Below are positions 51,850 through 52,075 of a stretch of DNA of 64,000 nucleotides, piece by piece. The DNA is from Cyanobacterium sp. Dongsha4. Its GTDB lineage: Bacteria; Cyanobacteriota; Cyanobacteriia; Cyanobacteriales; Cyanobacteriaceae. Under the pieces are notes generated by a model. That model was not told where the DNA came from and searched no databases. It saw only the letters and a list, made by a program, of their open reading frames with translations. Made by a program: the position numbers and the translations under genes. Within the stretch, counting starts at the first letter, position 1; every line of letters starts with the position of its first letter. Location of the stretch: contig NZ_CP084098.1 of the NCBI RefSeq assembly GCF_036345015.1, forward strand, positions 1,749,326 through 1,813,325. The letters run 5' to 3'.

Positions 51850-51879
51850 GTGGATTGAAAGGAGCAACTGATTCGTAAT
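51850..51879 (+). ncRNA. Delocalised homing crRNA: short repeat plus tRNA-matching spacer
   Basis: GTGGATTGAAAG (51850-51861) resembles the 3' end of the array repeat (GTGCGATCGAAAG) and serves as an atypical short direct repeat. The next 18 nt, GAGCAACTGATTCGTAAT (51862-51879), are identical to the minus strand of the tRNA-Thr gene at 52054-52037. The base after (T versus C) breaks the match. The target is preceded by GGTA on its own strand, fitting the GTN PAM of Cas12k. The TnsB-site array starts 3 bp later. Confidence 0.85.
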
Positions 51880-51882
51880 TAT

Positions 51883-51993
51883 GACATTTAATTTGTTAAC
51901 GATTATTCAGCGACAGCAATTTGTTAAGGCGACAGTTAATTCGTTAAGATGACAACAATTTGTTAACGATGACAGATAAAATGTTATTCGACA
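51883..51993 (-). repeat. tRNA-proximal transposon end with five TnsB-site-like repeats
   Basis: Read outward to inward on the minus strand, sites lie at 51993-51971 (terminal), 51966-51951, 51947-51931, 51927-51912 and 51899-51883, all variants of TTAAC(A/G)AATTnnnTGTC at 19-29 bp spacing. The asymmetry of five sites here and three at the other end is typical of Tn7-like elements. Confidence 0.85.
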
Positions 51994-52003
51994 AAATAAG
52001 GAA

Positions 52004-52075
52004 GCTACCTATGGGACTTGAACCCACGACCTACTGATTACGAATCAGTTGCTCTACCAACTGAGCTAAGGTAGC
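52004..52075 (-). tRNA. tRNA-Thr (anticodon CGT)
   Basis: The 72-nt gene folds as a full cloverleaf: acceptor GCTACCT/AGGTAGC, D-loop AGTTGGTA, anticodon stem ACTGA/TCAGT around TTCGTAA (anticodon CGT), and T-arm GTGGG-TTCAAGT-CCCAT. No CCA is encoded. It is the attachment target of the adjacent CAST, which ends 10 bp beyond its 3' end and leaves the gene intact. Confidence 0.97.

Follow-up and report, generated by a model that had tools for sequence, protein, structure and literature searches.

Why does an 18-nt piece of a tRNA gene recur, inverted, a short way from that gene and directly behind what looks like the end of a CRISPR repeat? The question arises in a 64,000-nt stretch of the Cyanobacterium sp. 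Dongsha4 genome (the window, meaning the whole stretch of DNA that was analysed), for which a preliminary description made from the letters alone had read the 18-mer as a homing guide. We conclude that positions 51850-51879 almost certainly hold a truncated CRISPR repeat followed by its anchor spacer, both parts of a type V-K CRISPR-associated Tn7-like transposon (CAST) that inserted beside tRNA-Thr(CGT) and has since decayed. We refer to this element as E1.

The guide unit of E1 and its tRNA target

The features of the locus, in window positions, are:

48893-51993, plus strand: E1, a degenerate type V-K CAST with right end (RE) at 48893 and left end (LE) at 51993, 3101 bp long with the inserted IS counted in; delimited by a perfect 23-nt terminal inverted repeat (TIR) and typed by its V-K TnsB
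48893-48915, plus strand: right-end TIR, 23 nt, pairing perfectly with 51971-51993
49068-50365 (approximate, right bound judged by eye), plus strand: IS701-like insertion in the right end/tnsB 5' region, with an ORF at 49159-50334 (NCBIfam IS701, 9.1e-12, which falls under the curated cut-off of NCBIfam)
50506-51681, plus strand: tnsB pseudogene (PADLOC TnsB_0_V-K, 5e-161, profile positions 52-446 of 621)
51727-51762, plus strand: CRISPR repeat 1, a direct repeat of 36 nt with 3' end GAAAG and 75-nt spacing
51763-51801, plus strand: sole surviving array spacer, 39 nt, between both repeats
51802-51831, plus strand: CRISPR repeat 2, a direct repeat with degenerate 3' end
51850-51861, plus strand: R*, the truncated repeat (GTGGATTGAAAG); an identical 12-mer lies upstream of the anchors of E2, E3 and the G005 element (see below)
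51862-51879, plus strand: anchor (homing) spacer of E1, 18 nt
51882-51993, plus strand: left end with TnsB-site-like repeats, the inner ones putative TnsB sites; terminal repeat at 51971-51993
52003-52075, minus strand: tRNA-Thr(CGT), the attachment gene, intact (ARAGORN; Rfam RF00005, 73.7 bits)
52037-52054, minus strand: protospacer, D-arm to anticodon loop of the tRNA
52055-52058, minus strand: PAM GGTA, in the tRNA D-loop

The three features on which the homing-guide reading had been built were all recovered: 51862-51879 is 100% complementary to 52037-52054 within tRNA-Thr(CGT), GGTA (a GTN PAM) precedes the protospacer when read in the tRNA sense, and the first protospacer base lies 61 bp from the left end of E1 at 51993. 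The element boundary placed at 51993/51994 is fixed by the perfect 23-nt TIR, and the supposed cut-down repeat corresponds to the 12 nt of R* immediately ahead of the guide. The target-site duplication is imperfect (AGATA versus AAATA, 4/5 bp).

Type V-K CASTs are described as carrying an R* of ~12 nt and an anchor spacer, typically 17 nt long, with a GTN PAM, a PAM-to-LE distance of 46-82 nt (one exception of 147), and a left end that sits downstream of a tRNA pointing toward it (PMC9938897, cited from the available part of its text, as are PMC11406308 and PMC12719977 throughout). Their att sites are mostly tRNA genes, the crRNA for the att site is nearly always a truncated one that stands apart (PMC11406308), and homing proceeds via a partial repeat and short spacer outside the array (PMC12719977). 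The match, PAM, offset, R*, V-K TnsB, and left-end position at our locus all fit such an anchor spacer. As far as these partial texts go, E1 shares with the published elements the ~12-nt R*, a short tRNA-matching spacer just outside the LE, the GTN PAM, a distance within 46-82 nt, a tRNA directed at the LE, and a CRISPR array read toward the LE, but differs in having a spacer of 18 nt, an array of only two repeats, a broken tnsB, and no tracrRNA, cas12k, tnsC, or tniQ. Since V-K anchor units are described in all three papers, the E1 guide is an already known kind of unit, here in a decayed element.

The CAST at locus L266 of a relative (G005) resembles E1 in its CRISPR repeat (34/36, five copies), the same R* 12-mer, and a left end with 84% identity over 111 nt. 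Unlike E1, it has a guide that fits tRNA-Thr(GGT) (17/17, 68 bp), a five-repeat array, and a Cas12k that is stop-free over profile positions 2-626 of 629. Type I-F3 CASTs likewise use a special guide for a chromosomal att site (PMC11406308, in its available part), but have another effector type and other att genes.

Chance had been called very unlikely as the source of the match, and the counts bear this out. When the inner part of E1 (51682-51993) was subjected to 1000 dinucleotide shuffles and compared with 51994-52120, the longest inverted match averaged 7.5 nt and never exceeded 13 nt, against 18 nt in the real sequence. The 18-mer has three copies in the 4.32-Mb genome, namely the E1 guide, the tRNA target, and the guide of the sibling element E3, and the reversed 18-mer has none. 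Coincidence is thereby refuted, and regulation of the tRNA by an RNA fits no better: RNA transcribed along the guide would share the sense of the tRNA, so its possible pairing partner is the DNA and not the tRNA. We found no evidence in favor of either idea and give both practically no credence. The same negligible probability attaches to the idea that the 18-nt identity is an att duplication of the tRNA produced by the tyrosine integrase of a phage or island. Phages and ICEs do often integrate at tRNA genes (PMC11406308, in its available part), but here the copy is inverted, lies inside the element, begins in the D-arm rather than at the 3' end, and follows a CRISPR repeat end. Both E1 proteins tested match DDE transposases (TnsB, including the Pfam 'rve' core, and the IS701-like protein) and not a tyrosine integrase, and the TIR together with the V-K TnsB refutes this origin.

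For the anchor spacer of a V-K CAST, the anatomy suggests the following course. A short crRNA, tracrRNA, and Cas12k would have recognized the GTA PAM together with the protospacer, which lies in the D-arm/anticodon arm of the tRNA-Thr(CGT) gene. TniQ, TnsC, and TnsB would then have carried out the insertion, with the left end facing the tRNA at a distance of 61 bp from the PAM. The insertion point, 9 bp beyond the 3' end of the tRNA, left that gene intact. Most genes of the element were later lost through internal deletion and IS insertion, and the residue has both end repeats intact, a CRISPR remnant of two repeats, and the guide. We infer that this guide drove the insertion of E1, that its RNA was once made, and that decay took this order. 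A promoter scan returned 4 sites, where shuffled sequences averaged 2.4 (sd 1.6), and it detected no terminator. RNA folding of R* and the repeat revealed nothing remarkable (z = -1.16, -0.42, and 0.12), and an Rfam search at E 0.1 returned only the tRNA plus one sub-threshold match on its opposite strand.

The layout at other cas12k-linked loci

The preliminary description had proposed a comparison with the guides of other V-K elements, and we found the same layout in most of the loci surveyed. Cas12k matches were present in 134 of 387 genomes, from which we took 66 stretches downstream of cas12k as a non-random sample: the 40 top-scoring entries and 26 loci picked by hand, with multi-copy and same-family cases preferred. 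The rule took the 17-mer after GAAAG and accepted inverted matches from 15/17 upward within 800 nt, and the PAM was not a criterion. An inverted guide match was present in 53/66 loci. At the same threshold, reversed and complemented controls gave 0/66 each and the direct orientation gave 8/66, the last presumably at least in part CRISPR repeats.

All 53 matched loci have a GT PAM at the correct place, and in 49 of them the protospacer lies inside a tRNA gene (four have no tRNA). It starts at or before tRNA position 26 in 30/53 (26 of these with GGTA, in the D-loop) and at positions 45-75 in 12/53 (nine with GGTT, mostly in the T-loop), with seven in between. This clustering of targets in two parts of tRNA genes offers a simple possible reason why elements with a GTN PAM prefer tRNA genes. 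The PAM-to-LE distance has a median of 60, and 50/53 fall within 46-82; these distances depend on a motif-based placement of the LE, which can be in error.

Counting against the anchor reading are the 13/66 loci without a guide match (L221, L233, L235, L242, L258, L260, L261, L262, L267, L268, L272, L275, and L293). The L235 stretch is only 234 nt long.

Guides that do not correspond to their sites

Sibling elements adjoin three other tRNA genes of the same genome:

G000:C1:16.85-24.97 kb: E2, adjoining tRNA-Thr(GGT); guide 17/17, PAM GGTG, 73 bp (54 with another candidate end)
G000:C1:3578191-3578460 (3578.2 kb; L021 ~1190-1460): E3, adjoining tRNA-Met(CAT); carries the tRNA-Thr guide of E1
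~1546.6-1557.5 kb: E4, adjoining tRNA-Arg(ACG); guide 13/17, PAM GGTT, 65 bp

The layout of E1 is repeated by E2 and, less exactly, by E4. E2 also shares the E1 CRISPR repeat (36/36 and 34/36), and it contains Cas12k fragments and type I restriction genes. By eye, a MerR-like protein (L020:2672-3133) adjoins the E2 Cas12k fragment, in a position that fits the CvkR regulator of PMC9938897 as described in the available part of that paper. In E3, a Cas12k fragment runs directly into a CRISPR repeat (L021:1421-1915), so its internal deletion ends at the repeat.

The guide of E3 matches its own tRNA-Met(CAT) at 12/18, preceded by GTTA (no GTN PAM), at 61 bp. Guide and site can thus come apart, since E3 holds the 18-mer at a non-matching tRNA. 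The tRNA-Met site occupied by E3 is used in another genome by a CAST (L271) that has a cognate guide (16/17, GGTT, 62 bp). Placed on the E3 flank, the L271 guide gives the same values (16/17, GGTT, 62 bp), compared with 3/18 for E3's own guide there. E1 and E3 have no mismatches over 154 nt, spanning R*, the guide, and most of the left end, and then three within the final 14 nt (comparing the last 15 nt with the other 184 gives a Fisher p of 0.016, calculated after the pattern was seen).

Genome G112 holds a comparable pair. Between the cas12k side and the left-end tip L259 and L260 show no difference, and a further 2033 nt are 99.9% identical, which gives a shared block of ~2.6 kb (left end, guide, and cas12k) at 99.9-100%; past this block, megablast found no similarity in the 19.9 kb compared, and the ORFs differ. 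The L259 guide matches its tRNA-Thr(GGT) at 15/17 with GGTA and 60 bp. The L260 element is 60 bp away from a GGTA of tRNA-Gly(TCC), where the guide match is only 5/17.

Mismatch tolerance was considered for both discordant elements and rejected. Among the 39 distinct tRNA sequences of the genome, the E1 guide fits tRNA-Met(CAT) at 12/18, but two other tRNAs at 13/18 and three more at 12/18, so tRNA-Met(CAT) is not its best second target. The L260 guide reaches at most 8/17 within 140 nt of flank and 5/17 at the GGTA, which is too little. Nor did an array spacer emerge as the guide: no inverted match of at least 11 nt was found between the 140 nt outside and either 2 kb inside E3 or 673 nt inside L260 (array included). 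The third Cas12k piece of G112 (L309) contains no anchor-like unit that could have guided L260 in trans.

Gene conversion of the left end would leave just this pattern: a correct geometry, a wrong guide, and an identical guide in a sibling. From two such cases, E3 and L260, we put forward tentatively, at slightly below even confidence, that co-resident V-K CASTs overwrite each other's guides by homologous recombination in the left end (or that trans guides place them), so that the guide carried by an element need not be the one that inserted it. Trans guidance could also put an element at a foreign site, but does not by itself explain a shared block with different cargo. Six of the unmatched survey loci (L242, L258, L260, L268, L272, and L275) have, by eye, an anchor-like unit without a target within 800 nt; guide-site mismatch is therefore not limited to E3 and L260, and the other five are possibly further mismatches, or insertions elsewhere.

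The same exchange could in principle have given E1 its present guide, in which case the guide would have arrived after the insertion, by left-end recombination among co-resident CASTs. The 154 nt that E1 and E3 have in common up to the divergent tip and the occupation by E3 of a site unmatched by its guide would agree with such a history, but the E1 guide fits E1's own tRNA at 18/18 with PAM and offset. With E3 as the discordant partner and E1 concordant, E1 is the likelier donor, and we regard a later arrival of its guide as very improbable.

V-K elements lack a resolvase, their native route is described as unknown, and cointegrates of TnsA-less transposons can be processed by host recombination (PMC11406308, in its available part); guide exchange could on these grounds belong to the V-K life cycle. 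We found no published description of guide exchange between CASTs in a search of titles and the starts of abstracts that covered few subscription papers and no bioRxiv preprints, and guide overwriting between co-resident elements may be the sole new part of the E1 story. The discordant pairs suggest that guides can move among resident elements and, if so, such exchange could contribute to the differences in att sites seen among close relatives.

The surroundings and the decay of E1

The tnsB gene of E1 is broken at both ends, with two in-frame stops in the 90 nt upstream and the C-terminal part gone. The nearest relatives of its product come from cyanobacteria. The distance from the tnsB stop to the first CRISPR repeat is only 45 nt, which leaves no room for tnsC, tniQ, cas12k, or a tracrRNA, and no match to tnsC, tniQ, or cas12k was found within E1 (48893-51993). 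The left part of the IS701-like insertion has seven further copies in the genome at 99-100%. A genome search yielded no whole Cas12k, only pieces at three places (seven matches). TnsC occurs at two places, one copy with a stop and without ~25 N-terminal residues and the other a 92-residue piece, and TniQ is present as two adjacent pieces. Judged by its sequence, E1 is a fossil rather than a functional CAST, and nothing that we found in this genome appears able to move it now. Its guide would accordingly be a record of a past insertion and not an active homing device. E1 was also considered as a mobile mini-element, non-autonomous, guide-carrying, and moved in trans, but this found no support: a single copy was seen, and the internal deletion of E3 differs.

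The V-K homing signature (R*, a spacer of 17-18 nt, a GTN PAM, and ~60 bp) can thus outlive its machinery, so that dead CASTs and their past targets are recognizable from a few hundred nucleotides.

No clean empty site was found in the one same-genus genome searched (G001), where the flank downstream of tRNA-Thr(CGT) differs. The upstream flank lies elsewhere in G001, where the ftsW region that adjoins the right-end flank of E1 sits at another locus. That flank (48861-48890) forms the end of a sequence that recurs in the relatives G006 and G003; together these indicate that the area has been rearranged. Just left of tRNA-Thr(CGT) in G001 (L151), 21/26 nt match the left-end tip of E1 with the same 9-nt spacing. 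No other place in a one-strand scan of 8 kb matches as well (the runner-up has 16), although the 9 nt in between differ, and the match may be what is left of an eroded left end at this very site.
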